From NCBI GenBank assembly GCA_902728285.1, contig CACVBU010000982.1, positions 565,912 to 629,911 of the forward strand: a stretch of 64,000 bases of DNA. The letters run 5' to 3'. This DNA comes from Clytia hemisphaerica (taxonomy: Eukaryota; Cnidaria; Hydrozoa; Leptothecata; Clytiidae). Every line of letters starts with the position of its first letter. Position 1 is the first letter of the stretch. This document shows positions 7,424 through 50,063 of the stretch, piece after piece. The notes under the pieces are model-generated. The model was not told the origin of the DNA. It was given only the letters and a program-made list of their open reading frames with translations, and searched no databases. Both the position numbers and the translations under genes were made by a program.

Positions 7424-9819
7424 ATGAAAACAAAAAAGCAACTGAATACACAGAGTGGGAGACTTAACAACAAAAGAACAACAGCCAACACGAAACCTCC
7501 GCAACAATCAAAATATAGTTTCCGGGAACGTGCGATTGTTATTGAATCATCCACAGAAAACGAATCGAGTGATGGTGAAACTGTAGACTCAGAAATCGAG
7601 AGTAACAAAAAACACAGTGGAGAAAACGAAAAAAACCCACAAATCTCAGGTGATGAGACTGAGAGTCTTTCAGAATCAGATGTTGAGTCTCTGCCTCACA
7701 AGTCAACAAAAACACGTCAATCTCCAAGGAAATCACCTAGAAAACAACCTCCAGTAATAGATGACGACAACCCACAAACTTCAGGTGATGAGACTGAGAG
7801 TCCTTCAGAATCAGAAGTCGATTCTCCGCCTCAAAAAAACACAAAAAAACGTCAATCTCTGAGGAAATCACCTAGAAAACAACCTCCAGTAATAGATGAT
7901 GAAGATTCTGACATCATCTCATCCAAATCTCGAAGATCCACTAATAGGACGCTTAGATCAGGGATGGAATGCATAGAGGATAGTCCACAGAGTTCACCCA
8001 ATTCCGCTGCAGATTCGGCTTCGCCAAAGCTATTTTCACCAGCTGATCCAGAATCCCCTGGAAGTCAAAATTCGTCAGTATCGTCCTTTGATGAGTCAAG
8101 ATTAAGGAATGAAACCTCTAACCATGCTGAGTAAGCATTGTGTTTCTCTCTCTAAACCAATTAAAGAGTCTGGTCTTTCAAAAGTTAATAGTGTTTTGAT
8201 TTTCTTTTGTCATTTATTGTTGGGATCTACCATCACTAGGATGATTTTGGTTGTGGCGTTTTATATGCCTGAAAAATAGTTTGATATGATATGATTGATT
8301 TCTTTTTTCTATCTTTGTACAATCAGATCGATTCACTTTGATTTCACGCCAATTATGAACGTTGACAAGCTTCCTACAACGAATGTCGAAAAACAACCTC
8401 CAAATACTGTTCCTTATGGCCATGGTAACTATCATACGAATTTAGATTGGTATTCGTTTAACAATTTGAAAATTTTTGGGAATGACTGAATGTGAATGTT
8501 TTTGGATGGTGCTTGGAATAAACTCACATCACTTTTTTTCAGATATAATATCAATCAAAAGTTTTGAGTCCGACAAGCTCAATTTAAAATTTCCATCATA
8601 ATTTTCCCTACACTCCAGGTGCACCAATTGAAGCTTGTAAGATAAAAGATCACTTATCCATTTATTATAACGAACGTGGCATATGTGATGAATTCGCCAA
8701 GAGAGAAAACCTACAAATTCCACAAATGAAAATATTATGGAATAGCTACCTTGAGTTTATGACCATCAAAATAATAGGCTGCGATACCGGGCTCGATGGA
8801 CTGATACGATACTCAACTTGCACTGAAATGCATAAACTATGGCACGCACATGTTTTGAACACACATAATTACAGAACATTCATGGCATTAATCAATAACA
8901 TTAATCCTTTAATCGAATATTTGGACCCTTCTATTGAGCACGCCAATTCTACTGAAGAAACCAAGAAGAGACAAATCCAGAATACGAAAGAAGCTTACAG
9001 GTATTGAGTCATTTTGTTCGCAATTTTTGCAGGTTTTGTTAAGTCCGGGATTGTTTTTTTATCTGCTTTTACTCTTTTCATTTCCATTGGACGAAAATTA
9101 CTCAATAATTTCCCTGTTAAGCTGGCTGGAATGTGTCATGTTTAAGTAGCTTATACTATGTCCTTCTGAGTTTATGACACCAAACACATTTATATATCCA
9201 TGTTTTGTTCATCAGGAAACTATTCAAGAAAGAATGTCCGTGGTTGTCTTCCACACAAGAGGATGATGAAATTCCAACAATAGAAGTATCGGTACCCAAT
9301 ACACCAAACACTACAAATGATCGACCAAGTACAATAGATAAAAACTCCAATAGTAATACATCTAATAAATTAACACACAATGCTCATTCAAAATCATCAA
9401 GATCAGCTAATGACCCTTTAATATCCACCAATAATGGCACTCTTACAAAGACAACTAAATCTGTTTCAAAATCATCTAAATCAACCTCTGCTGATAATGT
9501 AAACTATGCATCTACATCTAATAACAAATCACGTAAACGTAAACAAAATAATCAAATCGAGTCCTTGACCGTCAACATAAAGACACACTCCACTGGCAAA
9601 CTCACGTTTTTTGAAAGATTTACAATAACGCCATCAATAACAGTTCTAAAGTTAAAAGAAATGCTTGCGCAAAGGCAGGATGTCCCTACTGAGTCCTCTC
9701 TTCTATGTTTTAGCGGCAAGCATCTTGAAAATCATAAATCATTATCAGAATATGAAATAACAGATTTGTGTACTATCCATTACGTCGAATCACGCGCCAG
9801 TCGACGGAATAAGAAATAG
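7424..9819 (+). CDS. WHxH-domain / ubiquitin-like fusion protein, paralog 1 (four exons, 596 aa)
   Basis: Exons 7424-8130, 8327-8424, 8619-9000 and 9216-9819 have GT..AG borders and keep one frame through to a stop. The N-terminal 235 residues are Ser/Glu/Lys-rich and probably disordered, with two 45-residue repeats that each end SPRKSPRKQPPVIDD. Exon 3 holds a helical domain with EFMTIK, LWHAHVLNTHNY and NPLIEYL, then a Lys/Arg helix ending EAYR and KLFKKECPW. This order resembles a family known from algae, oomycetes and plant GRDP-like proteins (WHxHxxxTxxY .. FIHH .. RYxxTxxxY). The C-terminal 80 residues form a ubiquitin-like fold (LKLKEMLAQRQDVPTE, LLCFSGKHLEN, LSEYEI) without a terminal Gly-Gly, so it is not a conjugatable modifier. 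Two paralogs lie downstream. The methionine at 7424 was chosen for its A-rich context; 7334 is an in-frame alternative. The function is unknown. Confidence 0.8.
7639..7905 (+). repeat. Tandem duplication inside exon 1
   Basis: Two adjacent copies of about 133 bp encode near-identical 45-residue acidic/Ser-rich blocks that begin SGDETES and end SPRKSPRKQPPVIDD. The duplication keeps the frame. Confidence 0.9.
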
Positions 9820-11829
9820 TTGTCCACAAGTTTGGAGCAGCATTGTTTTGAGATAGTGCGTCCTTTTTGTGCAAGTTGAGATCTGCAACCTTGGCTGAAA
9901 TATATTGAGATTTTAGTGTATTTTAACGTTTTTCAAAATTTAAAGTTCGAGCGAGAATTGCTATTTTAGCACTTCCACTTTCTTTCATTGAATATTTCGA
10001 TTTTAGAGGGGGTTCGGTGGCTTCTAGGCTATATTCCAAGCCTTATTCGAGTAAATTTGAGCTTTTAAATCCTGAGATCCCAGGTCCTAAGTCTCAAACT
10101 GTAGTCTAAGGCGCTTAAAAATCATTTGTGGTGTTTAAAATTTCGCCGGGAAATCCCCTTAGTCTCAAATATTTTGTCCATGATTGTGGATTCATCAAGG
10201 ATTAGGTGTCTTTTTTTTTTAATCTTATGTTGGCAGCAACCTCGTCAAATTATGTTTGATGTGTGGTGAAAGTTTGTGAAAATATTTTTTTATCCATTTT
10301 CTTCTGTAAATTGTTATGCGTCTTCTGTTTTGTCTCTATTTTTCAATCTTTAAGAATTCTCTTGGGTAGCTAGTAAGTATTTTCGACACCCTAATTATTT
10401 TTAGAGAATGGCTACCTGGGAAATTAATTCTCGTAAAAAATTTGTCCTCATTCTTCTTCGTTTTCTTTCTCTTTTTTTTTACTTTATTTTTTTTACTTCT
10501 TTTTTCATTATTATTCCAAAATATAACATTTTTTGTTTTTTTAACTACCGTCCCGCCGTCGAAAATAGCCAAGATTGTGACTATTTTGATAACGAGGATA
10601 TCAAGTTTTGTTGGTGATGTGGTTGCATGAAAATTACACTTGACTACTCCATGTCAATTGCACTAAGCCATATAAAACAGGTTTAGTAATACTTGTTTTA
10701 TACTAAAGAGTGGCATTCAGCCGGGTGGACCAAAAAAAACGCAACATAATTTATTTTTGACGTATCTTTAAAATTTATCGAGCTTACTTTATAATTTTCA
10801 CAGGGATTTTTACTTACCTAGTTTCCATCGTCTCCTGAAATTTGAAATCTATAACTTGATTACAAAAGCAATTATCGTTGTTTTAGTACGAGTACTTTTT
10901 TTCAATTTGTTACAAAATTGACGTCGCAGTATAATGTTGATTTATTTTTCAACAGGTAGATTGCATACAGGTAATATAATCTGGGCAAATTTTATCTTGT
11001 ACGTAGAAAATTTTTAATATATCAAAATTTAGATATTTAAAACTTTTTTGATTTTTTTTATGTCTTTTGTATTAGGGTTATCTTTTATTATCACCCTCTT
11101 AAGGAAGACTGTTTTAGTGTCCGGCGAGGAATCAGGGAGGGTTCTCCTGAATCTCCCTTGATATCTAGTGCGACACTTTTATGTTATTGATAGCCATTGT
11201 TTGTATGTATGGTTGTATATATTTTTGTGTGTTTGTGTGTTTATGCGTCACCACTTTCATCTTTGAAATATTTTGTTCTTTAAAAGATGACTTTTGAGTT
11301 GATAGAGTCTGGTCTAGACTTCATTAAGCCTTTGATTTGAAATTAAAGACCCATCTACATTAAGAGCATTTTGAATTTCTACCTTGGCTAGCTTTTCTCT
11401 TCCTTTACATCTTTTCGAATGTAATTATCGACCTTATTTGATTAATGACATTCGAATTATTTTCAAAACAAAATAAAAAAGTCTTTTTATCTAGAAAAGA
11501 ACAAAATCTATAAAAACATTAAAATCTAAAAGTACAAACTAAGACTTTTTAAGAAGCGCAACTTAAAATTGTTACTTGTTTACTATTTTTTGAATTTGAC
11601 AAAAAAATTTACATTATTATATGTTTGTCTGTGTGTCTTTGCCGCCTGAAGAATCTAATCTCACTCCTCTATTTTGACATCAAAGTTTTTCAAATAATCG
11701 AGAGCTGAACGGCACATTTAAAGCGAGCGAAGCGAGAAGAATGTAATTGTAGCATAATCGTCTCGAACACGACACCAGAACGCAAATAATTTTTATTTTA
11801 TTTTCTATTACTGCTTCAGAAAGATTTTA
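9820..11829. other. Intergenic, AT- and T-rich, no gene seen
   Basis: The stretch contains poly-T runs (10440-10550). A single mariner-like end (GCCGGGTGGACCAAAAAAAACG) lies near 10718, with no matching partner found. No upstream coding exons comparable to exons 1 and 2 of the preceding paralog were found for the next gene. Confidence 0.5.
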
Positions 11830-13054
11830 ATGCAAAGAATGAATGCTTTTAAAGCTAAAGACATTTTATCAACATATAATGGAAAGAATCACATTTGCGA
11901 TTTATTCTGGAGAAAAGAAAACCTATCAAAAACTGCGATAAACATTTTATGGGACCACTATCTAGAATTTATGACCATCAAAGTATTAGCTTTTGATACT
12001 GGTGTTAAAAATCAAATGAAATATTCGACAAGTCAAATCATGGAGTCGTTATGGAATGCGCATGTGCAGTGCACAGAACGTTATCAACAGTTCATGTTGT
12101 TGGTGAATAAGATAAATCCTATGGTTGATTTCATACATCACTCTCTAGAGATGTCCATCTCCTCTGAAACGTCCAAGAAAAAGCGAAGATATAACACTGC
12201 AATTGCATATAGGTATTTTTTATCTTTTCTGTTGTGCTTGAATAGTGCACAGCTTATGTAACGTTTGATGGATTTTAAGGCGAAGATATAGGTGAATGGC
12301 ATTTTTTTACGTAGGACAAGTGAATTTTTTTCACCAGATATTATAAAACTGTAGTGGGTTAAACTATCGGTATTCTTTCTGTGGTTGTACGTTTCTTACA
12401 ACAGCTGATATATTGCGTTTTTTTAAGACGTCCAATTTAACGACCGTTTTTTCTGTATTGATCAGGAAAAAACTCCGGTCTAGTGAGATGAAAAATGGTA
12501 GCCATAATATTCTGGGGGAAAATTGCATGAAATTTGCGTCATTAAAACAGAGTAAACGTGTCGTAAAGCCTACAAGAGTAAGCTCAAATCGCTAATACAG
12601 ATATAGCTTTTTTTTACCAAGCTCGGGGTCCTTTATTTCAACAGTCATTTATTTTGGTTGACATTTAATTTACAGAAAGCTTTTCAATAAAGAATGCAAA
12701 TGGATCTACGATGAAACTGAACCAAACCCTCCAATACCAATAAAGGAATCACGAAAGCGAAAACAAAAATCGGTGGCAGACGAGTATTCGAAAATCTACG
12801 TGAAATCGTTAAACGGTAACAAAACGCATACAATTCGAATCGTTTCTTGTATGACAGTAAAGCAACTAAAACAATTAATCAAAACTCTAGACGGAACTTC
12901 TGTTGAGCGACAACATCTCATTCTAGCTGGCAAGGAGCTTCAAGATCAATGTCTATTGGGTCATTATTGTGTGAGAAGTGGATGTACGATGCATCTGGTG
13001 TGTTCGAAAACGTCCAGAATGTTACAGAAAGTCAATTTCAGAAGATCACCTTGA
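11830..13054 (+). CDS. WHxH-domain / ubiquitin-like fusion protein, paralog 2 (two exons, 253 aa)
   Basis: Exons 11830-12212 and 12676-13054 join in the same phase and at the same place (YR|KLF) as in the paralogs. Exon 1 holds the helical domain with YLEFMTIK, LWNAHVQCTERYQQFM and NPMVDFIHH. The FIHH is the best-preserved match in this window to the wider WHxH..FIHH family, although the first His of WHxH is Asn here. A KKKRRYNTAIAYR helix follows. Exon 2 holds a ubiquitin-like fold (KIYVKSLNG, MTVKQLKQLI, HLILAGKELQD) ending without Gly-Gly. It lacks the long Ser-rich N-terminus of paralog 1. A 3' splice acceptor (CTGCTTCAG) lies 10 bases before the ATG, so an untranslated first exon or a trans-spliced leader is possible. 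The function is unknown. Confidence 0.75.
12467..12594 (+). other. Possible alternative terminal exon of paralog 2
   Basis: Within the intron, an acceptor (TTGATCAG|GAAAAAACTC) would continue the phase of exon 1 and stay open for about 42 codons to a TAA. It starts KKLRSSEMKNG and ends VKPTRVSSNR. Splicing into it would give a protein without the ubiquitin-like domain. Its own internal GT is out of phase with the next exon. Weak evidence. Confidence 0.2.
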
Positions 13055-13878: not shown

Positions 13879-16800
13879 ATGTCATCCAGCTTACGTCAAG
13901 AATACACCCAATCTTCCAGCGCATCCAATAGCGTCAAAAATATGCAAAAGATCTACCAGGTAAGATAGTATTTTCTCCTTTGTTTTTGTATTTTTAATAC
14001 TCTATGAACCCCTTTCGCTGCTGTATGAGTATTTCCAAAGGGAATTTTCGGATCAGGTAAGGTTTCCGTGGGCGCTGGTTGAATTCTTTATCAGTTTTCG
14101 AGCCAGATAAAGAATTCGCCCAACGATGATTTTACTGACCAGATTTATTGAAAAAAAGCACTTAAAACTGTTAAAGAATTCTCCCAAGACTGTTTAACAA
14201 TTGGCCCAAGACTGTTAAAGAATCTGCCTTTCTGATAAAGCATCTGCCCCAAACCTGATAAAGAATGTACTCCCCTCCAGATAAAGAATCTGCCCACCTG
14301 TTCAACGATCTGCCCTCCACCAGATTAAGAATTGACCCAAGACTGTTTAACAATTGACCCAAGACTGTTTAACAATTCACCCGAAACTGTTCAACAATTG
14401 ACCCAAGACTGTTTAACAATTGACCCAAGACTGTTTAACAATTGACCCAAGACTGTTTAACGATTCACCCAAGACTGTTTAACAATTTACCCGAAACTGT
14501 TTAACAATTGACCCAAGACTGTTTAACGATTCACCCAAGACTGTTTAACAATTTACCCGAAACTGTTTAACAATTGACCCAAGACTGTTTAACAATTGAC
14601 CCAAGACTGTTTAAAAATTCACCCGAAACTGTTCAACAATTGACCCAAGACTGTTTAACAATTGACCCAAGACTGTTTAACAATTGACCCAAGACTGTTT
14701 AACAATTCACCCGAAACTGTTCAACAATTGACCCAAGACTGTTTAACAATTGACCCAAGACTGTTTAACAATTGACCCAAGACTGTTTAACAATTGACCC
14801 AAGACTGTTTAACAATTCACCCGAAACTGTTCAACAATTGACCCGAAACTGTTTAACAATTGACCCAAGACTGTTTAACAATTCACCCAAGACTGTTTAA
14901 CAATTCACCCAAGACTGTTTAACAATTCACCCAAGACTGTATAACGATTCACCCGAAACTGTTTAACGATTCACCCGAAACTGTTTAACGATTCAACCAA
15001 GACTGTAGAGTATCTCGTTACTGAAAATCTCATGCCAACGGATAAAAAATGGCGAAATTAGCGGATTTAAACAATAGAAAAAAGTTAACTCTGAGTTCAA
15101 GAATCTCCCCTAAATCAGTTTAACAATGTTCCCTAGCTCAATTTAACAATGTCCCCTAACTCGGTTTAAGAATATCCCCTTGACTCAGTTCAAGAATGTT
15201 CCCTAACAATGTCCCCTTAACTCGGTTTAACAATGCCCCCTTGACTCAGTTTAACAATGTCCCCCAATGTCCAATGTTAAGGAAATAACCTTTCTAAGGT
15301 CCAAAACCACAAGTAAATATCATCTACCCCGTGTATACCTAAAATCTATCCGGAGCTCTGAATGTTAACCCTTTAAAATCGGAAGACCTGTTTAGTTTAT
15401 GTGTCCAGAATAATCCAAAATACCAACCACAGACTTTTGGTGATAACTCCTGACCGCTTAATTTAAAGGGGCATATACTGGAAGCTTTTAGAAAGAGAAT
15501 AAAAATAGCCTTCTAATGGTACCAAAACGATTGTCTAACTCTCAAGCTACAAGTATTTAGGCCACTTTGAAGTTTTATGGTTATTTCAATAAGAAGATGG
15601 ACAAAGATGTTCAACTTTCAACTTTTTTTTCACATGTTGAAAAAGTACTATAAAAATATATATACAAGGGAATAAACAAAATAGCTGGAGCAACATCAAA
15701 ATCATGTTTGGGGGTAGTCGATATTAATACAAGCGATGATGTTGTCGAATGGCTGGTCAAGTCCGTACCAATCTCTGTAATAAAACAAGACAGTCAATAG
15801 TTAACAGAGTTTATTTAAATTATTTTTGGATAAAATAAAGGCTTTGTATTAGCTTAAGTAACTCTGTCTCAGATTGGGCATATATTTCATATTAGACCAG
15901 AGTCGGCATATTGTCTTTTTTCGCTGAGATAAACAAATATTTTGAATTTTCTTGGTTTTCGATCGAAAATTGCTAAACATCTGTGTCTATTCAATACAAA
16001 ATAGCTTGTAATTTAAAAAAGCTGAGTTAGCAAACGAAAACTTTACATAACAAAACAAAACCTTTAAACATAATTTCTAAAAACTATTAAATTTTTAGTT
16101 ACCTCCACATGAACTCGTCCATGTAACTTTGAAGATCAACACGCCTGATCCCTTTCATAGCCTTGATTTTCAATTTGAAGCGGTTCCAATATGACTCTAT
16201 ATTCTAAAAATATAAGAAATAGGTTTCTAACGAAATAATCTTAACTTGATTTATGTAAAGTTATAGCTCCAAAAAGCTGGCCCGTTTCGCCCATCTTTGC
16301 CATTTTAACTCTAGCTTGTTGGTCTGTAACTTTTGATCCGTTCAGAAATATATGAGAAATTTGAAGACAAATTTCAACTTCTAAAGAGTAGTAATTATCG
16401 CTTACCTGCGTGTGAGCCCCTGTTTGAGGATCTACAAAGTGGTACGTATGGTTAACCGTGTCATGGCCAATACAATTTGGAACGAATTGTGGGAGATTGA
16501 TGTATGCCCTCCATTCGTCGCTATGGATAATGCTGTTGGCATTTAGGACACGATTGATCACCCCAGTCAAAACAGCGCGATTCCTCCTTGGGACAATTTC
16601 CATATATCCTTTGGCGGGTACAAACCTCGTATCGGCCAAGCCAAAAACCCATACCGGATTTTGGGCAACGCGTCCTACTCCAGCCTAAAAATGAAAATAA
16701 TACTTGTTTATGCATGTTTAAAGACTCTCAAGGCGCACACTATTTTATAAGAACGGATAAAATTTGGTCGAGACTCGGCGCTGTTCTTGACTTTTCGAGA

Positions 16801-19800
16801 CTTTTAGAAATCTTCTCAAATTTTCAAATCATCGAGAATAATAAAATTCCAAACAACGTTTTTTGGCTATGAATGTTCTACACTTTGTTCTGATATAAAA
16901 TCGTTGGATATCTAAATCTTCTGATATCCTTAAAATTTTAAAATTTTATGAACTACACGGGTGTTTAAAAAAAACGGAAAAACTTTTTGATGTTATTTTA
17001 AAAGAAAATTTGTCGTTTTTCTTCATAACTTTTGAACGAATAAAGCAAATTTAAAAACTCAAAATTTAAGTTAGCCTAACAAATTAAGTCGATAGCATTT
17101 GTAAAATTTTTTCACAACTTTTCAAACTTGTTCCGTTTTTTTAACACCCGGTACCTTACAGCTCAAAATCAATTGATCAAATTATACCCTTCGTCTGTGA
17201 TGAAACTGGCTTTCGTCAATTTGAACGACAAAATTTGCGCCACCACCACCAACCCGGATGGGGTTCCTTTGAAGATCATTTTGACACACTCTTCTTAACT
17301 TTTGAAACATTTGAATTACATGGTCCTTGTTGATTCGCACAATATTGACTACTTTCACGCAGCTTATCTTCTTCGACCACAAATATATAATTAAAAAAAG
17401 GTCCGGTAGCGATTTTCTTTTCCAGTCTGAGAAGATTGTACCATCCCTGATTCGCAGTGCTTTCCGACATGGTCGGTTGCATCTCCTGAAAATGTACCAT
17501 AAAATTTCCCAATTCTAATCAAAATCTTAAAATCCTTGTATAGTCTGTCTCAAAATTATGTGGACACTTTATTTTTTTTGATATTATCTCAGCACCCATT
17601 CATTCTATATTAAAAAGTTATACACCGTTGGAAAGATAATTTTTTGCAGAATATTTTAATAGATTTAAAATTTTTTGAAATTTGAAAAATGGAGATGAAA
17701 AGTGAAGAAGAAAAAATGAAGATTTTTTCTACTGATTTAGAAATCATGAAGTACTGTAATACTTTTTAGAATATTTAAACTTTGGTGATTTCAAATCTGT
17801 GCTCAGTCAGATTTTTCATATCTTTCTTGTATCAGAAGTTACAGTCCCCGAAGAGGGGCTAAAACGGTCTGAAATGGCTAAAATAGACCAATAAAATAAA
17901 CCAAAAAAAAAACAAAAACTGTTTAACAAAAAAATTAAATAGTCTTACCAGCGGTAACCATCAGTGCATCTTGCATCTCTTTCCATGTGCATTGGATTTT
18001 GGCAATTTGGACAATCTTTTCGCACAGAAATCAAACTTCTAGCTTGCAGAAAGTGAATAATTGCTGCCTTATCACGACCAAAAAGTAGGGCACCCCATCT
18101 TTGCATGAATCCCCGATGTACTGCATTCGCTGCCATTATGTTACCGTGATACTACTTGAACAAATTACTAGATCCCAATTACTAGTTCAAAAATCCACTA
18201 CATGCAAATAAATAGTAATTTTCGAATCCTGGGAATCCTCAAATCATTAAGCCTGGTAACTAGTAAAATCGTTTACTATTGTTTATCGTGTAAATAAGTT
18301 GGGCAGGGAAGAAAGGGAAGTTTTTTTATTGGGGTGCAATTACATAGCATATTAATAACCGCTTAACTTTTTCTTTGACATGCAGGTGACTAAGTGTCTC
18401 TAATTCCAACCAATTATATTCCATAATTGGAATTGGAATTCAAGTTATTTCACACTTCTGGAGCTTTTTGAAAATGTGAAGAGCCGTTTCAAAGGGAGAG
18501 TGTTATTCTTAATGTTATACTTTGAAACAACTCACACCATTCCTTTGTTCGCGCGTGTGTAAAATAAAACTTGAAATTTTGGCACGATAAAGTCCGATAA
18601 ATCCATGTTCCCCCCATAAAAATTGTTAAATAACCCCTTCAAAGCTGAATTCCTTCGGAATAATATAACAATAGCATTCGGTTTGAGGTCGTTGTTGTTA
18701 TTTTCTGCCCGCGCAGTTTGATTATTAGCCCGAGAGTGTCATTTGGGCCCGACGCGAAGCGGAGTTAGTTTAGTCTTTTCGCTTCAATGCAACGACTTCA
18801 ATAAAGTTCTGAGCGGGCTGCAAATGACGTTATCGCCCTATAACCAGGGCGGTTATTGATATTTTAGCCCTCTGAAGCGCGACGCCTTAGTTTTCTCAGC
18901 GCGGGTATGACTATTTGAGTCATAGAACCTTTCAATACCGCCCGCCGTTCGAATATTTAATGGCTTACTTAATGACCGCTTTATGGATAATAATATGTGT
19001 TTATAAATAATATTTTCATTTTTGAGCGAGTCATTTTCATCTTTTTGTTGTTTATGTACAGGTATATATGGTTGCAAAAAAAAAACCGCAACCAATTGCC
19101 TGACGATTGCATAGCATGAAACACCGTGTAGCAATAAGTTAGTTTATTATTTCAAAATTCCTATTTTCGCTCGATTTCTTTCTTTAGCAATCTGTGAATT
19201 TATATTTTTATTGTACAGGTATATACATAACTTTAACCCTATTTACCCTAAGCTTTTTTGAGAGTAGTATCCCTAAGGGGGAGGGAGGGTGTTTTCCACC
19301 AGGCTTTAATAACTTATGATCTAGTTGGGTTTTAATCGTGAAACTTTGCAGGAATGGGCCTTACAGTATGTGTTCCCAAAAACGGCGATCAAATTTGAAA
19401 TTTCTCTCAAATCTAGAGGAAAAGAGATTTTACAAAAATTTTTGCTGCATGAAAATCTTTTACATCTCTACTTTATTTCCTGGAAGTTCTTTTTCAAAAT
19501 ATTCAATTTCAACAATATTTTTCAATCGCTTAAAGATATGTAGCTTTTTTCTAATGGCCCCCGAAACGGAGGTTTGACACTTTAGCGATTTCTCGAGATA
19601 TCTTTAAGATATGAATACAAAATTTTGAACATAGTTTTTGCATTTTCTGAACGTCATTAGATGTAGAAAGTTTCCTATACCACGTTTTCATAACTTATTT
19701 TCAATATCCAAGGAGCTAGAGTGAGTTATATGCAATTTTTATCTAATTTAGGTGTTAAAATATTTCCTTTAGACGCAAATATGTTATTTTGAATCCGTCT

Positions 19801-22800
19801 CAAACCAGCAAAAACATGCTCATTTTTAAGTATAACCATCATTCTTTCAAAATAAACAAAAATCGTTTGATTCTGATAAATCTACAAGTCAGAATTTTCA
19901 TTTTAATGAAAACCTTCGTTTTGGGGGCCGTCTCCGTTTTGGGCGGGCCATATACTGTACCTTGAAAGGACCTCACAGGAAAAATTTGGAATTGATGACG
20001 TCACCGTACAGGTGGTGACGTATCGCGCAAACCTTTTATCAACCGCTGACCAGTCAAAAAATAAGGGTCACTAAAAACGTAATCCCAGGATAACGAGTAA
20101 AGATTTTTCAATTCTGTTTTGATTTTCTAAAAGAAGAAGATTTAGAGGCGGTTAGGCGAGATTTCTTTGGGGTATGTTGAAAAAATGCAAAAAAGTGAAA
20201 TAACTGCCTCCATTGGATTTTTGTACAAACGTCAGGATTTCTCCAAGACTCTTTGTTTATTTCGTTAGAAAATTCGGCTGAGTATAGTAAAATACATCAG
20301 TAAATCGAATGGTAGTTCAATTGTTTTTAAAAACCAAGCAATTTATAAGTTTTAAAAGTCATTGAACGGCAACATGTATGGTTGCAAAATTCGTAGGAAA
20401 ATCGCGGTCACCCTTGGAAAAAATAGAAAGATGCCCTTGCATTTCACTTTTTGAAAAGTTTAAAAAGATTTTGGGCTGAGAATAATTGAGTTTTGTCTCA
20501 GACTTTTTGTATGTAGGTATAGTAATTTTGGAAATTAGAAATCCTGAGCTTTCCAAAGCTATAAAAAATCTTTCCTTTTTTCCACTTAAAAACGTGTGAA
20601 ATTTAGCCTCTAAAATAAGTCGCTGCGATTACCCTTGGGTGGCCGCCGTTTGCCTATGTTACCGATGTTTTCTAATGATCCAGGAAAATTTTACCTCAGG
20701 ATAAAAATTTAAAATAATCACATCAAAACATCACAAAAAGATTAATTTACTCAATGGAAAAAAGTATTAGTTGTAATTGCTGGGGGGGGGGGTTGGAAAA
20801 AAATGTAAAACTTACATACAGAAGACTTAGTGCAAAAGAAGGAACTTTCAAAAACATTTTCCCAAAAAATAATAAGCGGGGGGGGATTGGAATGAGAATG
20901 TCCTGGGTAAAAAAATTTCGAAAAATTTAATTAGCAGGGGGAGACGTCTATTACAGATCAGAGAGTACAGACATTCATTAAAATTGGCATTACGCCTGGG
21001 TGCTCAAACGTCACATACATACAATCGAACTAATCGAAAAATTCTCCCGCTGCAGTTGATATTTTGAAAAATTCTTGCAAAACATTAGATTTTCATATAA
21101 TCCAACTTACGGGTTGTGACGTTTTTAAGGGTAAGTTTTTATAAATAACCACCGGGGATATTTTCGCACTTGCTAGTGAGTTGCATGCGTCAGCATGTTC
21201 GTATGATCACCCCATGCATGGCCTGATGTAATACATACTTAAAGGAAAATATCCGTCACGAGACCTGTAGAACAGAGATATAGTAAAAAATACTTTGGCC
21301 AAATATTCAAATGAAAGTTGAAGAAGGTGGTAAAATACAACACGAAAACGGCAAAAGAATTCATTTGTTTCGAAAAAATTTATGTCGGTGTGTCGGTGTT
21401 TGGCTAAATAATTGTTGGTTTTTCGGTGAATTCAAAAAAAATCGTCGGTATTTCGGTGACACAGATCCTTGTACGCCCCCACATTACATAGCATATTAAT
21501 AACCGCTTAACTTTTTCTTTGACAGGCAGGTGACTAAGTGTCTCTAATTCCAACCAATTATATTCCATAATTTTCTATCTTTCTTTCTAAATTCAAGTTT
21601 CACACTTCTGGAGCTTTTTGAAGGACCGACATTATTTGACAGCAATTATCTTGTTATGTAATTGTAGTATTTTGACAGTGTTCAGAAAAAATTGTTTCTA
21701 CAGTATATAATCTACAGATAATTGGGAGATAATTAATACAACAATATACACGCAGGTGGTGGTAGATAAAAAGAATGGGCCGACAAAAAGTATATTTGAT
21801 TGGTTAAAAGATTTCATACGAAAAGGTGATTCCCCAAAACTTTTTATATAAGGATAAAAAACACACGAGAACTTCACTTCACTTAGAACAAAAATAATTT
21901 CAAGATGAATTTTGCATTGATTACACAAATCGACGACGAAGGAATTTTAACGTACGAACTAATGCAGCGTGGTGTTTTGGCGAGGTCACGAAGATGTAAA
22001 AATAGAAATAAACACGAATATGACGTGGATATGGAGCTTTCAAATAATCAAAAGCGTTGGTAAGTAGTGGATTTATTATTAATTTCGATATTATTACGAT
22101 AGTCTTTCTGCGGCGGCGGTGGTGGTCAGAAGATGTTGATATGTTTCTTCAGTTATCGACGGCGCTAGATACCTAGCACAGAAGCATACCTTTTAATAAG
22201 GACCGTATTTTTCAACTTTATAACAAACTGCCCAATGGCCTTTTTTTCTTATAAGCATCAAATCTATACTTAAGAAACTAATCGATAACTTGCGATCCAA
22301 GGGAAATTGGCTTTCGGCAATTCGGTTCGAGAATGAGCATAGTCTTTCGATTATACGTATGTGATAATCGAATACTTTAATCGTAGAAATTTTAGCGAGA
22401 CTAATTTTAGCGTCAGGAAAATCTTGATTTTTTTTTGATTTTTTTTTAGCGAATCACGATTTCAAAAGATTTTGCGTGGACAAATTTTAGCGAATACTTG
22501 TATTACATTATTGACTATATCCGTTTTCTAGTATTTCTTTGCACTGAAACCCTTCCTATTGATAACAATGTATCAAGACAATATTTTCAGAAATTTCGCA
22601 GGGATAAATTTTAGCGATCTGTCGATTCGACGTGTTTTAGCGAGATTCATTTTAGCGAAAATAGGGAAAAATAGGGAAAACTCGCTAAAACGCTAAAATT
22701 AGTCTCGCTAAAATTTCTACGATTAAAGTATACAATCCATTTGCTTTCAAAGGTTGTCCTTCGATCTAATTTGTTGATTTGAATCGTCAATTGGCTTTTT

Positions 22801-25800
22801 AAAGTGTCTATAATCATTGAATTCAATGTTGCGAGGAGCATTCGTAGGGTCAGCTAATTGCTAGTTACTATAATGTTAATCCAGTGTATTACACTGTCAA
22901 ACCCCTATACTTTTTTCTGAGTCACCCGGTACAATGGGATATAATGTGAAGAATTCTCTTTCTTTACCTCAGGAGATGTCATGAATGCACCAACACTTAC
23001 TCTGTTCGAAAAGACTCGTTTTTTGAGAACTCTAATGTCAAATTATTGATTTGGGTACAAGTTATCGCCTTCTGGAGCCAAGAAAACACAATACGAGTAA
23101 GGAAAATGATTTATCTAACATTTAATGTTTATGCCTAAGGTTGTTTTCAAGCTAGGCCAGGCAGATGGGTAATAAATTAATTCCCAAAAAGTAATCAGGA
23201 TCGAGAGCTAGTCACATCTGTATCAGCTATATATTTCTATTTTTTTCGGAATTTTTGGGTTTTTCGGCATTTTGAAAGTAAAATCAGAATATTTTCCCCA
23301 TTTTCTGATTTTCCAAAAAATATTTATCGAATTTGGCGGAAAAATTTTCCTGAATTCCGGATTTTCCTATTTCTAAAAACCGGATTATCGGTTTAAGTAT
23401 GTCATAGCCTTCAAATTAAATTTTGTTTTAATTTTTTTGCCCAATTTCGAACTATAAAAGAACGATTTCAAAATCTTTTTTAGCCCTTAAGATAAACGAG
23501 TTTAAAGTTTTCAGAGCAATAATTTTTTATTTCTAGTCATGTGCAATTATGTGAAAAAAGTGCAAAAAAATGATTTTTTCGATCATTTTGAAATTTAATT
23601 AAATAACTCGGGAACCGCTCAATTAGAAATGAAAAATAAGACCCTTTTTAGATCAACCTTTTTTTGTTTTTTTTTTGTTTTGTTGTTTAGAAAAAGAATT
23701 ATCTTGAAAGCTAAAAGCTAAATGGGTGACTTTGAGTCTTTGAGTCATCAGTCATCAGTTATGACGTCATAAAGCAAGGTTTTTCTCAAATTACTCAAAA
23801 AAGATGTCGTCATATAAATCTACGTAATTTTTCTATTCTCAGGCTATTGCCAACAATGTGGATGTGTCACAACCAACAGTGAGTGAGATGGTAAAAGGCC
23901 TGAGGGAGCAATGTCAGGCGTTTTTGGAAGATCAACCACCTCTGATCGGTGGTCCGGGAAATCCTGTCGAGATAAAGATTTTAAAGCGATGTACTGCAGA
24001 GTGTGACATCGTGATTGTCAAACAAAGTGATAGAGACCATGGTTATTTGCTCCACAACAAAAATGGACGATATAATAACCCAGAAAGTGGAAAAGTAGTG
24101 CCAGTTCAACCAGGAGGCACCGTCTTCACGAGGCATGGTTTTAATTTACCGGAAAATGTGGCCACTTCGGATGATCTGGTCCTTTACCAAGGCAATGCCA
24201 ATCCAGAGAGACACGCGAAAGATTGGATTCGGAAAAGACATGGGATTCCTTGTAACAAGGCTGGTGGCTTCTTGGGGGAGTACAACTTCCGCTTTCTATA
24301 CGAGAATGACCAAGATGAGATTGGGGAAAGGTTCATCGCTGCCTTAAGTAGACATTACCAAGGCGAATTTTTATAAGGTTGAACGTCAGTTTAGTATTTA
24401 TTAGTCGATTTTCTTATTGTTTTGTATATACCCGTCGTTTAAAAGAAGCCTTCGCCTTCGGATGTTCTTAACCTTTTTCAGTTTTAAGCCTTAAAATGTT
24501 CGTATTTTCAACATTTTTACCAGTTTTAAAAAAAATCGCTTGTTTCCCATGTTTTTAAAAAGTTTCTGGATGTTCCCACGAAGTTTGTACGTATAAAAAA
24601 CGTAGCTTTTTTTATTGTTTTGTATATTGCTGCTTATTGTTTTGTATATAGCATATCGTTTCAGATTGATTTTACTATTTTCTTTTCATTTTGTAAAGCA
24701 AAGAGAAAAGACAACACAAACTTCAAATACCGTTTCGAAGAATTATTCCATATAGGACCATATACAGTGGTAACAAGAATCTTGACAAAATCAAAAATTT
24801 CCCAATTAAAAGGGCAAAAGTCTACAGAATACTCTCGGGTACCTAATAGCCGGGGGGATTGGAATAAGCGGGGGGGGGGGGGGTTGGAAAAAATCTCAAA
24901 ACTCAATAAGCGGGGGATTGGAATAAAAATGTCCTGGGTGGAAAATTTTTGAAAAGGAGGTTAATACAGCTGAATTACGGCAAAAGAAGGAACTTTCAAA
25001 AACATTTTCCCTAAAACTAATAAGCGGGGGGATTGGAATAAGAATATCCTGGGTGGAAAATTTTCAAAAAATTAATTAGCGGCTATTAGGTACCCGAGAG
25101 TAACGCTTTTGAGAAACTTTAGCAAAAATTTATTTAGAAGAGGTCGGAAAACTTTTTTGTCAGTGGAAATTTTACTTATTCGCAAAACTTTATTGAATTT
25201 GGGATCAATATTTTCTTGGACAAATCCTTTTATAGGTAGAGAGTCTGAACGAACATTTTAAACAATCGTAACCTTGCGCCAATTGTTAAACAGTTTCGGG
25301 TCAATTGTTAAACAGTCTTGGGTGAATCGTTAAACAGTCTTGGGTCAATTGTTAAACAGTTTCGGGTCAATTGTTAAACAGTTTCGGGTGAATTGTTAAA
25401 CAGTCTTGGGTCAATTGTTAAACAGTTTCGGGTAAATTGTTAAACAGTCTTGGGTGAATCGTTAAACAGTCTTGGGTCAATTGTTAAACAGTTTCGGGTC
25501 AATTGTTAAACAGTTTCGGGTAAATTGTTAAACAGTCTTGGGTGAATCGTTAAACAGTCTTGGGTGAATCGTTAAACAGTCTTGGGTCAATTGTTAAACA
25601 GTTTCGGGTCAATTGTTAAACAGTTTCGGGTAAATTGTTAAACAGTCTTGGGTGAATCGTTAAACAGTCTTGGGTGAATCGTTAAACAGTTTCGGGTCAA
25701 TTGTTAAACAGTCTTGGGTGAATCGTTAAACAGTTTCGGGTCAATTGTTAAACAGTTTCGGGTAAATTGTTAAACAGTCTTGGGTGAATCGTTAAACAGT

Positions 25801-27391
25801 CTTGGGTCAATTGTTAAACAGTTTCGGGTCAATTGTTAAACAGTTTCGGGTAAATTGTTAAACAGTCTTGGGTGAATCGTTAAACAGTCTTGGGTGAATC
25901 GTTAAACAGTCTTGGGTGAATCGTTAAACAGTCTTGGGTCAATTGTTAAACAGTCTTGGGTGAATTGTTAAACAGTCTTGGGTCAATTGTTGAATAGTTT
26001 CGGGTGAATTGTTAAACAGTCTTGGGTCAATTGTTAAACAGTCTTGGGTCAATTCTTAATCTGGTGGAGGGCAGATCGTTGAACAGGTGGGCAGATTCTT
26101 TATCTGGAGGGGAGTACATTCTTTATCAGGTTTGGGGCAGATGCTTTATCAGAAAGGCAGATTCTTTAACAGTCTTGGGTCAATCGTTAAACAGTCTTGG
26201 GAGAATTCTTTAACAGTTTTAAGTGCCTTCTTTCAATAAATCTGGTCAGTAAAATCGTCGTTGGGCGAATTCTTTATCTGGCTCGAAAACTGATAAAGAA
26301 TTCAACCAGCGCCCACGGAAACCTTACCTGATCCGAATTTTCATCAAAATCACCTTAATACTCCATTGTCACCCATTTTAAGAAATAATTAGGATGCCCC
26401 TAGAACCAGAGAATAATAATTTGTACTAAAGTCTTTCTCAAATTTGTGAGGAGAGTTTTTTTGACAATTTTCAACATGTATTAGTATCAGAAAGAAAATA
26501 TTTTTCAAAAAAAGAAAAAAGACGAAGAAAAATGGAGATTTCTTCTAGGGGTTTAATAATCATGACATAATTTTTCTAGTGTATTTGAACTTTGCTGACT
26601 ACAAATCTGTGTTCACATCTTTAGTATCATTGTTGGATGAAAATTTACAGTACTGTAAGCTGTTTATCTAAGATAGCTACGAAAAAGCAGTTACAAATCA
26701 GCAAGGCTCAAATATTCTTAAAAAATCCGTCATGGTATTTGAAACTATTAATTTCTTTCACCTTTATTCTTCGTTTTCATTTTTCAAGCTTTCAAATAAG
26801 TTTAATCTTTTAGATTAATCTCCTTTGAAGTATCTTTCCAACTGTGCAAAGTTTTTTAATATAGCATTTTCATGGGTACTGGCAAATTGTATAAAATGTA
26901 AAGTGTCCCACATACTTTTGAGTTGGATTATGTTCATGATTTAATTGAGCGTCGTTTCTTTCTTGTTAGTCTGGTCCAGACCCCGTTCACATCAAGACAC
27001 TCGCCGACAAGAAAATGTTCAGGTAGATTTAAATTTATTGATTTAATCTGGAAAGATTCTTCGTCACAGACTGGTACACTTGATTGGCACCTCGTTAAAT
27101 TTTTATGTTCCTTCTTCCAAGCTGGTTCTGTCCCTTTTATTCTTATTTTTGGGCGGTCTAGGGTAATGGACATCAACGTCATCGAGGGACTCCACTCCAC
27201 TTTACAATTTTTTGTGGAGTCAATTGTTGAACTTAAAACTGCTACAAGCGTTGGTGGCATAGTTTCATTTTAAAATTTCCTTTTATTTTTTTAGATTCTT
27301 GATGCCAGCAACTTACATCTCAATTGCTGGTACTTTTGGTGTTTTCATGTACATGGCTCTCGGAAAAATGAAGCGTGCTCCACAAAATTAA
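13879..27391 (+). CDS. COX7A: Cytochrome c oxidase subunit 7A-like protein (three exons, 76 aa)
   Basis: Coding exons 13879-13959, 26970-27022 and 27295-27391 join at consensus sites (CAG|GTAAGA; TTGTTAG|TCT; TTCAG|GTAGAT; TTTTTAG|ATT) and keep one frame of 76 codons plus stop. The protein has a short N-terminal leader, then QKIYQ, PVHIK and ADKKMFR, then one membrane helix (about residues 46-67) and a basic tail (KMKRAP). This order matches the COX7A family (QKLFQ, P(L/V)xLK, ADxLxR, one helix), a single-pass subunit of mitochondrial complex IV in the inner membrane, and the length is typical. Intron 1 is about 13.0 kb because a 12.3 kb Merlin-type transposon sits in it; without the element it would be about 720 bp. 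A mariner-like repeat also lies in that intron. The poly(A) signal is at 27496. Exon 2 is only 53 bp, so the join needs RNA support. Confidence 0.75.
14049..15006 (+). repeat. Left terminal inverted repeat with 22-bp tandem array
   Basis: The outer 110 bp are unique and include GAATTC and paired TTCTTTATC words. A transitional zone (14162-14340) has imperfect units (TTAAAGAATCTGCC). Roughly 30 or more units of GACTGTTTAACAATTGACCC+AA follow. Units differ mainly at AAGACT versus GAAACT and at AATTGACC versus GATTCACC, so two flavours alternate. The array stops at CTGTAGAGTATCTCG. Confidence 0.95.
15090..15275 (+). repeat. Second, degenerate tandem array next to the left arm
   Basis: About seven imperfect units of CTCAGTTTAACAATGTCCCC+TTGA are present. 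They share TTTAACAAT with the terminal array but have a different remainder. No counterpart was seen beside the right arm. Confidence 0.8.
15702..18136 (-). CDS. Merlin-superfamily DDE transposase (five exons, 312 aa, intact)
   Basis: Minus-strand exons 18136-17949, 17485-17188, 16684-16406, 16203-16103 and 15774-15702 join at GT..AG sites in one frame of 312 codons plus stop. The N-terminus has a zinc-ribbon-like set (CPNCQNPM, DGYRWRCNRPC). A helical region with IFSDWKRKSLPDLFLIIYLWS follows. The ISXO2/IS1016-type catalytic domain shows the first Asp in VVQIDESQF, the second in IHSDEWRAY and the Glu in TQNIESYWNRFK. It also has WVFG, IVPRRN and VNHTYHFVDPQTG between them, and a C-terminus with YMDEFMWR. 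All family landmarks are present and the length is normal. The enzyme would cut and join the ends of its element in the nucleus. Intron 2 contains a TA-flanked MITE (16956-17151). No frameshift or stop is seen, so the gene may be functional. Confidence 0.92.
16956..17151. mobile_element. MITE inside transposase intron 2
   Basis: A 196-bp element with inverted ends: CACGGGTGTTTAAAAAAAAC on the left, and GTTTTTTTAACACCCGG (spelled CCGTTTTTTTAACACCCGG) on the right. TA flanks both sides. The ends look like mariner termini. It lies between GT..AG borders, so it is removed by splicing. Confidence 0.85.
17535..17910 (+). repeat. Mariner-like repeat fragment in transposase intron 1
   Basis: It starts TAGTCTGTCTCAAAATTATG and contains GTTGGAAAGATAATTTTTTGC. 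The same words occur in both arms of the inverted-repeat element at 26390-26910, so both belong to one dispersed family. Confidence 0.6.
18335..18480 (+). repeat. Direct repeat, copy 1 (partner at 21475-21628)
   Basis: It contains ATAGCATATTAATAACCGCT and ACTAAGTGTCTCTAATTCCA, and ends TTCACACTTCTGGAGCTTTT. The same block recurs about 3.1 kb downstream in the same orientation, with a small central difference. Confidence 0.9.
18481..21471. other. Central spacer of the transposon, no gene recognised
   Basis: Three kilobases between the two divergent genes, bounded by 145-bp direct repeats. It includes a G-run segment at 20778-20960 that resembles the MITE at 24832-25100. No exon with coding character was found. 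The short open frames here lack motifs. Confidence 0.5.
21475..21628 (+). repeat. Direct repeat, copy 2 (partner at 18335-18480)
   Basis: It matches copy 1 from ACATAGCATATTAATAACCG to CTTCTGGAGCTTTTTGAA. A short T-rich replacement (TTTCTATCTTTCTTTC) stands where copy 1 has GGAATTGGAATT. Confidence 0.9.
21845..21852 (+). promoter_or_regulatory. TATA box of the second transposon gene
   Basis: TATATAAG lies 53 bases upstream of the ATG at 21905, at a suitable distance for a short 5' leader. Confidence 0.55.
21905..24376 (+). CDS. Merlin-like protein lacking the DDE catalytic residues (three exons, 270 aa)
   Basis: Exons 21905-22059, 22973-23096 and 23843-24376 join at GT..AG sites in one frame of 270 codons. 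The N-terminal half is Merlin-like: KRW|RCHECTNTYSVRKDSFFEN, then a tryptophan-rich helix, then a helix-turn-helix-like SQPTVSEMVKGLREQC and GGPGNPVEI. The first intron splits the same Trp codon in the same phase as in the transposase at 15702-18136. Where Merlin has an IDES-type first Asp, this protein has VEIKILKRC. No SDxW or NIExxW motif follows, and the middle is about 60 residues shorter. The C-terminus (GFLGEYNFRFLYEND..FIAAL) again resembles the Merlin tail. It probably binds DNA but cannot cleave; regulator, targeting factor or titrating partner are inferences. The frame is intact, which suggests retained function. Confidence 0.8.
22375..22728. mobile_element. MITE in intron 1 of the Merlin-like partner gene
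   Basis: A 354-bp element with TA on both sides. Its ends (CTTTAATCGTAGAAATTTTA and the inverted TAAAATTTCTACGATTAAAG) pair over about 38 bp. Copies of TTTTAGCGA recur throughout. Confidence 0.92.
24377..24831. other. 3' flank of the Merlin-like partner gene
   Basis: AT-rich sequence with TTGTTTTGTATAT words repeated near 24417, 24616 and 24640. No gene is seen. Confidence 0.4.
24832..25100. mobile_element. G-run MITE with TA duplication
   Basis: A 269-bp element with terminal inverted repeats CTCTCGGGTACCTAATAGCC / GGCTATTAGGTACCCGAGAG and TA outside each end. It contains a run of about 14 G and three copies of AATAAGCGGGGG+ATTGGAATAA. A related, less complete segment lies at 20778-20960. 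Confidence 0.92.
25275..26335 (-). repeat. Right terminal inverted repeat with 22-bp tandem array
   Basis: The reverse complement of the left arm: about 40 units of TTAAACAGTCTTGGGTCAAT+TG, a transitional zone at 26041-26222, then the outer unique 110 bp ending CCTTACCTGATCCG. Across 26022-26213 the sequence is almost identical to 14171-14362 in inverted orientation: the 63-codon frame conserved on both arms differs at one residue. Confidence 0.95.
26390..26912. mobile_element. Mariner-like inverted-repeat element in COX7A intron 1
   Basis: The two halves share words in opposite orientation, namely a GGAAAGATA/TATCTTTCC core and a TCAAATAC..ATGA block. The right end spells AAGTGTCCCACATACTTTTG, the complement of a TGTGGGACACTT-type end like that at 17535. 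The boundaries are approximate. Confidence 0.55.
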
Positions 27392-27867: not shown

Positions 27868-29256
27868 ATGGCGGCGATGAGAGCTAAGAAACTTTTTCTT
27901 GGATATTCTGGAAGAATTGAAGTTACTCGTTTATATATAAGAAAAAAAAGTATATCCACACGTCAGATGAACATTTTATGGGATAATTACATCGAGTTCA
28001 TGGTTGTCAAAACTATCGGATTGGATCCCGGTAGTAAATATGGAATCAAGTATGGAGCCACTGCACCTATCGAAAATCTTTGGCATTTCCACGTCTCCTT
28101 GACTGAGATTTATAACACCTTCATGTTGATTGTTAAGGATATCAATCCTCTTGTTGGATATATTGCACACCCGTTGGACCTTTGTTATACATCGAGAGAG
28201 AAGAAACAAGAAAGACGCAAAAATACGGTTGAAGCTTACAGGTGAATAAATTTCTCACATTTTACAATATCCTAAATTATTTCTAACTTAATCTACGGTG
28301 TGAATGCTTTAAAGATGCATCCTGACTTTACTGAAGTTGAAAACAACAAAAGGGCATCACATTTTGGGTTTAATTCAAAATATAAGCTGTGTCATATATA
28401 TATTTCACGCTGACTGTCAGAAAATATTAAACCGCTATCGCAGTGTACTTTAGGTGTGCTAACTTGCGAACAGAAACTTTTCCGAGGTTCAAAAATCGCG
28501 AAATTTACGACATTTACTTTCGCGAATTTGACAAAAAATTATTTTTCGCGAGCATACCACATGAAAATGGATACTTAGAGGGACGGTTGGGTGGGTTGGG
28601 GAATTCTGTCTTTTGACTATTAATGAGGCTTAAACAGGCTAAAAAACCATACATTTTACACATTTTACATGTTATAGTTAGAAGTTTTGTACAGATTTTC
28701 TATCTTTCGTCAAGAATTCTTCGCGAGCATTAAACTTTCGCGAATCGACCTTTCAAGAATTTACTTCCTTGAAAAGGGCTACAATTCCCGAAAAGCGCGA
28801 AGGTTTTTGCACGTTCTGAATTTTACTTCTCTGATTTTGTTTCAAATCTTTAGGATGCTTTTCGAAAAAGGATGCAACTGGCTCACCATATCAGCAAAAA
28901 GAAGACCATCAATACAACCAAAACCAAATTATAAAATATGTATTGAAAGATCTGATCGGGCCTGTCATCATATTTGTATTCCTTGCAATTATGGCGCTCC
29001 AGATGAAACTGTTGGATTTATGAAATTCAGGATTCAGTCTCGAGAGAATATTCCAATTGAAGAACAGTGTCTTTGTTATAATGGCAGACCACTTGCCCGT
29101 GACCATTTAACTTTAAAGGAAAGCGGTGTTCAACAAAATAGTGTTTTGACATTACATCACAAAAAGGTCAAAGTTTCAATGGTAGAGGAGCAAATCAGAA
29201 AAGATATAGAAAGTAAAATCATGGAAGATTTTGGATCTCTACCATGGGAGCATTAG
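27868..29256 (+). CDS. WHxH-domain / ubiquitin-like fusion protein, paralog 3 (two exons, 258 aa)
   Basis: Exons 27868-28241 and 28854-29256 join at the family's conserved site (EAYR|MLFEKGCNW). An in-frame TAA lies 12 bases before the ATG, so this start is firm if transcription begins nearby. Exon 1 has YIEFMVVK, LWHFHVSLTEIYNTFM and INPLVGYIAH, followed by a KKQERRKNTVEAYR helix. Exon 2 carries a ubiquitin-like fold (VGFMKFRIQSRENIPIEEQ, LCYNGRPLARDHLTLKESG) and a further 35-residue charged tail ending PWEH. The second His of the family FIHH pair is absent. A 3' splice acceptor (TTTTTTAG) lies 26 bases before the ATG. The gene starts about 370 bp after the COX7A poly(A) signal on the same strand. 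The function is unknown. Confidence 0.78.
28242..28853 (+). other. Intron of paralog 3
   Basis: A 612-bp intron (GTGAAT..TCTTTAG). It contains several TTCGCGA-type words, including a CGAAAATTT..TTTCGCG series at 28490-28560 and 28720-28800, probably a small decayed repeat. Confidence 0.5.
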
Positions 29257-49504: not shown

Positions 49505-50063
49505 CCCTATTCGGCCTAGGGGGGGGGCTCTTTCTGTTCGGACGTCAAACTATTGGTAATAGCTCCTGAAATAATAGAGCTTTTGCCTTGAAATTTTCTG
49601 TAAATTCCTAACTTTTATTTAGCTTCAAAATAAAAAAAAAATTTGACACCTAAAAATTTTCACACCTTGAGTATGATGACATTTCTGACAGTAAGGTGTC
49701 ACAAAAATTGACACTTTTCCAATACAAATTTATTTTTAATGTCTAATATATCGTTTAAACCGTAATTTATTGAATATTTAGGATAAAATAAGCATTTTAA
49801 ACTCAGACAACTTTTTTCTAAAGCTTTTGTTAGAATACAATAGCTATTTATAAGAACAAAGGAAATTTTCGGTTTTTGCTCACCTTGGGCATGATTAGTG
49901 ACGTCATCAAAAAATTTTTTTGTCAAAAGTTACCTTACGTGACAAAGATCTTGTGTGCCAAATTTCACCCAAAAAGACCAACTAGATCAAAAGTTAAGGG
50001 GTGGTACAGGAAAAGCCCCCCCCTAGTTCTGAACCGCCCCTAAAAGCCTAGGTTGAATAGGGC
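49505..50063. mobile_element. 559-bp MITE inserted in the integrase coding region
   Basis: The ends CCCTATTCGGCCTAGGGGGG and the inverted CCTAGGTTGAATAGGGC pair, with runs of G and C inside. TAA flanks both sides (49502-49504 and 50064-50066), so the duplication is TAA or TA. The integrase reading frame resumes in register across the insertion, so the MITE came after the retrotransposon. Confidence 0.92.

Follow-up and report, generated by a model that had tools for sequence, protein, structure and literature searches.

A Merlin-type transposon of Clytia hemisphaerica with tandem-array ends and a second gene related to its transposase

The locus studied lies in a 64-kb stretch of a Clytia hemisphaerica contig, here called the window, and positions given without a contig are those of the window. 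An element of 12.3 kb spans positions 14050–26334 and carries two genes between long inverted ends (Table 1). It is flanked on both sides by a perfect 8-bp duplication, GAATTTTC. The preliminary description had set the limits at 14049..26335, which is right to one base, and had named AATTTT as the flanking repeat. AATTTT is indeed present on both sides, but a 6-bp duplication was rejected because these letters sit inside the 8-bp GAATTTTC, a length known from other Merlin elements (PMC8101967).

Table 1. Features of the array-ended element in the window
Feature	Position in window	Strand	Basis
Left target-site duplication GAATTTTC	14042..14049	none	flank comparison
Left outer terminal inverted repeat	14050..14330	+	starts GGATCAGG; recurs in genome
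Left tandem array, 22-bp unit TTAACAATTGACCCAAGACTGT, 31.0 copies	14325..15006	+	TRF
Second, degenerate 23–24 bp repeat run adjoining left array	15094..15265	+	TRF
Gene 1 exon 4, catalytic Glu (NIESYW) and stop	16099..16203	-	splice model
Gene 1 exon 3, second catalytic Asp (HSDEW)	16406..16684	-	splice model, relatives
Gene 1 exon 2, HTH region and first catalytic Asp (QIDES)	17188..17485	-	splice model, relatives
Gene 1 exon 1, Merlin transposase N-terminus	17949..18136	-	splice model; tblastn in other copies
Gene 2 exon 1	21905..22059	+	splice model
Gene 2 exon 2, Merlin-like WRC..C..YSVRK module	22973..23096	+	splice model
Gene 2 exon 3, HTH, then C-terminal domain without recognisable DDE, stop	23843..24376	+	splice model, relatives
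Putative nested MITE-like insertion CTCTCGGG...CCCGAGAG	24832..25100	none	TA flanks
Right tandem array, 22-bp unit, 35.8 copies	25273..26059	-	TRF
Right outer terminal inverted repeat	26054..26334	-	match to left end
Right target-site duplication GAATTTTC	26335..26342	none	flank comparison

When inverted, the terminal 281 bp of the two arms are 98.2% identical. The exact match of the ends that had been claimed holds for the outermost 77 bp but not over the whole 281 bp. The left outer repeat holds an inner palindrome, GAATTCTTTATC...GATAAAGAATTC, besides degenerate units like those of the array. The start GGATCAGG, beginning with GG, was found at every end in the list, which was drawn up with a pattern that began with these letters and allowed up to 6 mismatches. 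Inwards of the outer repeats lie the two tandem arrays. Across the 31 units of the left array 14 of the 22 positions never vary, and most of the variation falls on five positions. Short degenerate repeat runs were also detected by TRF outside each array, towards the ends, and a degenerate run of 23–24 bp repeats adjoins the left array; none is present by the right array in the TRF listing. Since the degenerate runs add to the 31.0 and 35.8 copies counted, the initial estimate of roughly 40 copies of a 22-bp unit per arm is a fair one. Long inverted ends composed of tandem repeats are a foldback-type architecture. An apparent MITE-like insertion, bounded by TA and with inverted ends CTCTCGGGTACC, is nested in the right part of the element.

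Gene 1 consists of four exons which, joined at GT-AG sites, give an open protein of 289 amino acids. The spliced protein matched PF12762 over residues 155–289 (E 8.9e-17; 61.9 bits, cut-off 27) and the IS1595 transposase model NF033547 (E 5e-28; 98.4 bits, cut-off 75). The catalytic D, D and E residues are present in gene 1 and in 14 non-redundant relatives wherever the stretch was covered. Going by these sequence features, gene 1 codes for a Merlin/IS1595 transposase and its frame is intact-looking. A P-type transposase with a THAP domain was also looked for, and no Pfam match of this kind was obtained in either gene at E up to 1.

Gene 2 has three exons and on GT-AG splicing yields an open protein of 270 amino acids. 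Over 132 aligned positions its N-terminal part is 25% identical to that of gene 1 (E 9e-11; hhalign E 9.5e-12), and intron 1 is a phase 2 intron which splits the same Trp codon (TG^G) in both genes. The C-terminal half showed no detectable similarity to the DDE domain of gene 1 (hhalign E 0.2–0.9) and no Pfam match. PF12762 did not match gene 2, which is thus not itself a Merlin transposase. The matches to Pfam were helix-turn-helix families under the cut-off only (HTH_28, E 5.3e-4), and the best NCBIfam match was to the N-terminal part of an IS1 transposase (E 8.1e-5; 22.6 bits, cut-off 100). Among PDB sequences the best E value for a relative was 0.51. Searches for relatives outside the genome led nowhere in viral and prokaryote contigs and gave two matches at E 0.3 in phage records. 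Within the genome, exon 3 is 63% identical to the window copy in C487 and 39% in C450 (C numbers denote contigs), and the site of the first catalytic Asp is occupied by K, D or S across three families. As no likeness to DDE was detected in the C-terminal half, this half may be either a decayed DDE domain or a different domain. Judged by its sequence, gene 2 lacks a recognisable catalytic domain and is an ancient paralogue of the N-terminal part of gene 1.

The two divergent genes described at the outset are thus both present and open once spliced at GT-AG, and the transposase is intact. The description of both as Merlin-type applies to gene 1 and, in gene 2, to the N-terminal half only. Likewise, the term catalytically dead sister fits the homologous N-terminal 132 amino acids but claims too much for the C-terminal half, in which no similarity to DDE was detected.

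A recurrent in-frame TAG in relatives of gene 2 was rejected in part, after five intron-derived residues had been trimmed from the query. With the trimmed query the TAG disappeared in C735, C899, C897, C883 and C792, as did a TAA in C677 and one of two TAGs in C91, so that in these the query had caught the splice acceptor. In relatives such as C513, C355, C410, C3, C617, C786 and C835 the in-frame TAG persisted; our guess is that these may have a second intron near residue 48.

The genome (417 Mb in 951 contigs) was searched for further copies of the ends. Many were found, with near-full ones among the matches listed. Both ends were examined in nine copies: those of the window, C712, C91, C740, C308, C277 and C346, and those of the more divergent families in C373 and C949. 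Perfect 8-bp duplications of differing sequence flank five of the nine (window, C277, C346, C308 and C373), the one at C308 being made of A/T only. At C91 the duplication is 9 bp long with one mismatch, and at C740 the copy is shifted by two bases. None was found at the ends of C712 and C949. The recurrence of near-full end copies, together with differing perfect duplications in five of nine copies, shows that the element is not a chance arrangement. The proposal of one mobile unit of the Merlin superfamily, large and with array-built ends, is supported, and the comparison of target duplications over several copies that had been advised bears it out. A genome search with the joined flanks, also advised, did not find an empty site for the window insertion, the two flanks of the window itself being the sole match.

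Arms without the two genes, which were to count against a single mobile unit, were observed, for example in C740, C91, C277 and C308. The copies in C740, C91 and C277 have neither gene, and keep unique internal pieces of the window element in order. Their common core is 98.7% identical between C740 and C91 and 99.4% between C91 and C277, and for a second part of C277, which is duplicated, the figure is closer to 95%. In this core window position 21735 is joined directly to 24371, some 1.63 kb of unmatched sequence stands in place of 15282–20186, and 24806–25096, the interval of the MITE-like insertion, has no counterpart. Since they carry window-unique sequence in the right order, these three copies are deletion derivatives. 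The copy in C308 (695 bp) consists of arms only, with its array units almost all on one side, and those in C17, C928 and C588 are end fragments with a match of 102 to 363 bp at one end; these four do not themselves show an origin by deletion. We take these and the other incomplete copies to have arisen by deletion or truncation, rather than to represent a free-standing repeat. In C277 (410483-415279) two left ends with an identical flank, GGTATTTC, are separated by about 4.8 kb, which points either to tandem duplication within a single copy or to a duplication in the assembly.

Other copies with the ends of the window family retain coding sequence. Parts of gene 1 without a gene-2 match are found in C712, C346, C327 and C495. 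All four exons of gene 1 are present at 100% in C374 (tblastn). C352 lacks exon 2 but has exons 3 and 4, and exon 1 in two frames. Both C374 and C352 match exon 2 of gene 2 and not exon 3, in examined regions that stop short of the far ends; in C352 foreign sequence breaks exon 2 at the position matching 22996. Within the window family, the window copy is the only one seen with both genes whole and open.

The association of the two genes was followed across the genome, with same-strand matches less than 3 kb apart joined into clusters. Exon 3 of gene 1 matched at 59 places (54 clusters) and exon 3 of gene 2 at 92 places (64 clusters). A gene-1 cluster lies within 12 kb of 31 of the 64 gene-2 clusters, the nearest neighbour being divergent in 25 and tandem in 6; conversely, 32 of the 54 gene-1 clusters have gene 2 within 12 kb. 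When nine loci known from exon 2 alone are added, 34 of 73 gene-2 loci have a gene-1 neighbour within this distance (28 divergent, 6 tandem and 0 convergent by nearest neighbour). At C3 the choice of partners is ambiguous. The orientation is not fixed, since C487 and C735, whose gene 2 is closest to that of the window, are among the tandem cases. As a control, the genome was searched with PF12762, which returned 68 Merlin places, 43 overlapping the gene-1 set and 25 others. Gene 2 was present within 12 kb at 29 of the 43 and at 1 of the 25 (Fisher p 1.3e-7), where uniform placement would give 0.2 pairs. The places do not count as independent, several contigs appearing to be near copies of one another. 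Grouped at 90% identity over exon 3, the 19 paired loci examined make 10 lineages. Exon 2 of gene 2 had 44 matches in the genome at E up to 1, and in 35 of these cases the C-terminal exon follows on the same strand at a distance of up to 6 kb, so that the two-part build of gene 2 is itself conserved.

The single exception among the other Merlin places, C566 (553101-558350), holds a divergent Merlin domain that was missed by the gene-1 query, with a gene-2 relative 4.4 kb off on the same strand. It suggests that the two-gene lineage is older than the gene-1 set.

Between the window and C487, gene 2 gave pS 0.82 and pN 0.24 over 175 codons, and between the window and C450 pS 0.86 and pN 0.39 over 172 codons. 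For exon 3 of gene 1 the values against C487 were pS 0.80 and pN 0.11 (92 codons). No ratio is given, as synonymous sites are saturated; even so, the protein has changed far less than the silent sites. Gene 2 thus looks to be under purifying selection in the three sequences compared (window, C487 and C450). Linkage and selection together indicate a separate, element-encoded, non-catalytic protein conserved with the transposase, as in systems of the En/Spm type. Identity to the window copy was not correlated between gene 1 and gene 2 in the 24 pairs used out of 31 (Spearman -0.23, p 0.28), a comparison in which the gene-2 identities come from partial matches of differing extent and which left out the window, C146, C34 and C897 (short gene-1 matches), C3 (two rows) and C410 (ambiguous partners).

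Arrays were sought around 30 gene-1 loci. An array of at least 4 units was present within 1.5 kb 3′ of exon 3 at 12 of them and on the 5′ side at 3; in the remaining 18 none was found in the 1.5 kb covered 3′ of exon 3. In the control, 0 of 31 bins of 1.5 kb in the window outside the element contained an array, two bins at a second array-armed element (44133–45421) having been dropped; with these included the count is 2 of 33. Five of the 12 array loci have the ends of the window family (C352, C374, C680, C712 and C495, the last with a 15-bp unit). The other seven belong to other lineages, with units of 45 bp (C508, C731, C248), 36 bp (C854, C769) or 23 bp (C786, C835). Among end-related families, C949 has more than 58 units of 44 bp, and C373 has 15 units of 23 bp on one side and 111 on the other within a perfect 8-bp duplication. 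Going by the C373 counts, array length looks unconstrained. No match to gene 1 or gene 2 was obtained in the stretches of C373 and C949 examined; the C373 copy (159484-168677) is a 6.8-kb relative with grossly unequal arms. By eye, a core like TTAACAAT or GGTAAAGAA is shared by several array units and the terminal palindromes, and is absent from the 45-bp unit. On formal comparison the arrays of C373 and C949 were closest to the ends of their own family, two of the three tested. The window array scored 13 of 16 against its own ends and 14 and 13 against foreign ends, so that its own were not the best.

The second array-armed element has 36-bp and 18/54-bp units, the end GAGTCTGCTAAATGACGCGCC and a 10-bp flanking repeat, CAGCATATAA. 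This end had 328 candidates in the genome; in the 40 that were scored the boundary was mostly the same, and several formed inverted pairs with about 1.3 kb between them. The length of the flanking repeat suggests a different superfamily, and the element is probably non-Merlin. Its presence in the same window means that array arms may be a habit of this genome. Elsewhere in the window, a ubiquitin-like domain (PF00240) closes each of three frames (8588-9819, 11758-13054 and 28678-29256), with E values from 1.7e-12 to 1.3e-14. Two of them follow frames that are alike and have no Pfam match, and together these make up a repeated gene family. A coding region of the BEL/Pao retrotransposon type (Peptidase_A17, DUF1759) occupies 50040-54549 on the minus strand.

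Merlin elements are usually taken to be simple, with one transposase. The available part of PMC8101967 agrees with this view; it gives 8- or 9-bp duplications and 5′ ends starting with GG, and the one extra ORF it describes overlaps the transposase and was judged a chance frame. Microsporidian Merlins have likewise been described as a transposase with terminal repeats (PMC4202319). The window element is like the Merlin superfamily in general in its DDE_Tnp_IS1595 transposase, GG end and 8-bp duplication, and unlike them in its size of 12.3 kb, its second gene with a Merlin N-terminus and its long inverted array ends (PMC8101967). Neither a second functional gene nor array-built ends are mentioned for Merlin in the excerpts of that paper, and no report of a two-gene or array-ended Merlin was recognised in a literature search made mostly at the level of listings, with Repbase and supplements outside its range. 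The claim of a new architecture for the superfamily would hold for the two genes and array ends, both unreported in the literature found, but is tempered by the internal tandem repeats of some Merlin families, with one repeat region also in opposite orientation (PMC8101967).

The array ends are no novelty as such, since array-built ends that bind transposase are known from Galileo, a Drosophila element of the P superfamily, in which the long terminal repeats are internally repetitive and the transposase also binds tandem repeats (PMC3688188, as far as its accessible text goes). The window element resembles Galileo in this respect; Galileo belongs to another superfamily, and no second element-borne protein is reported for it in that text. 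Tetris and Tm1 also have a foldback architecture with repeats at the ends. Tm1 is listed under Mutator/Foldback, and neither is listed as Merlin (PMC4079207, PMC3169594). In En/Spm, TnpA recognises sub-terminal repeats, TnpD is catalytic, and both proteins are required (PMC2613891). The repeats diverge between families; the motif of En-1 is 12 bp, and Tgmt* has 4 and 24 copies at its two ends and a 3-bp duplication. TnpA and TnpD come from alternative transcripts of one region (PMC2613891), whereas the two genes of the window element are divergent paralogues.

The window element is probably an autonomous cut-and-paste DNA transposon of the Merlin superfamily that encodes two proteins. By analogy with the systems above, we lean slightly towards a Merlin of two components, in which the transposase would act on the array ends together with a paralogue that is non-catalytic and probably binds DNA. 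The product of gene 2, with a putative zinc motif and helix-turn-helix, would be the DNA-binding protein, and it or the transposase, or both, would bind the array units, which resemble the core in the terminal palindrome. Binding on the arrays may assemble the two ends into one complex, and may also tune or repress activity. Such a mode would be akin to that of TnpA with TnpD in En/Spm, or to the multiple transposase sites in the long ends of Galileo. Several observations count against this reading: no function could be assigned to the C-terminal domain of gene 2 and its helix-turn-helix matches are under the cut-off, the identities of the two genes are uncorrelated, the linked loci are partly dependent, and no second copy of the family with both genes whole was seen. 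The lack of an array in the 1.5 kb covered at 18 of the 30 gene-1 loci, the apparently free array length, the window array being no closer to its own ends than to foreign ones, and the nearby non-Merlin element with array arms point the same way.

The arrays may instead be passive, a sub-terminal motif expanded by replication or recombination with no role in mobility, which we consider rather unlikely. The very unequal lengths of 15 and 111 units in C373, the variation of unit sequence and length between lineages, the other array-armed family in the same window and the failure of the window array to be nearest its own ends all agree with passive expansion, as does C308, where the units are almost one-sided and the 8-bp A/T-only duplication is nevertheless present. 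Against it, arrays lie 3′ of gene 1 in several lineages, and the core is common to the terminal palindromes and the units of some other families. The 14 invariant positions of the left array also speak against passivity, although recent amplification would give the same.

Alternatively, gene 2 may be mainly a repressor, which sits on the ends and holds copy number down; the arrays would then act as a titration device. There are precedents in KP of the P element and InsA of IS1, the latter an element-encoded N-terminal zinc/HTH protein without a catalytic domain. The zinc/HTH-like parts kept by gene 2 without a recognisable DDE domain, its weak match, far under cut-off, to an N-terminal IS1 transposase and the few near-full ends among the matches listed are in line with repression. 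However, such repressors are usually recent truncations, and InsA is made from the IS1 transposase gene itself; gene 2 is an ancient, separate and divergent gene with a conserved C-terminal domain of its own, and its retention in many sub-lineages fits a required partner at least as well. A role chiefly as repressor thus seems unlikely. Far less probable is an accidental pairing of nested elements, gene 2 having arrived by a later insertion. The gene-2 region is absent as a block from the core of C740, C91 and C277, and one edge of the missing block falls within a few bases of the gene 2 stop codon, which speaks for such nesting. Yet C374 and C352 of the window family carry exon 2 of gene 2 in place, the junction overlap is 2–3 bp only with no element ends in the flanks examined, and the pairing recurs at 34 of 73 gene-2 loci. 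Accidental nesting was rejected, as it is contradicted by the genome-wide linkage.

Taking the two-component reading further, we regard it as evenly balanced whether these elements form an undescribed two-protein Merlin lineage of at least 10 sub-lineages, in which lineage-specific satellite-like arrays serve as a joint recognition platform. If this is true, the division seen in En/Spm between a cutting enzyme and an end-binding partner would have arisen again, from a duplicated transposase. The lineage would be a convergent counterpart of the TnpA/TnpD system, and new satellite DNA could arise from it. As arms of 15 to 111 units, and units of differing sequence, occur within one genome, it would offer a testable route from a transposon end to a satellite-like array.
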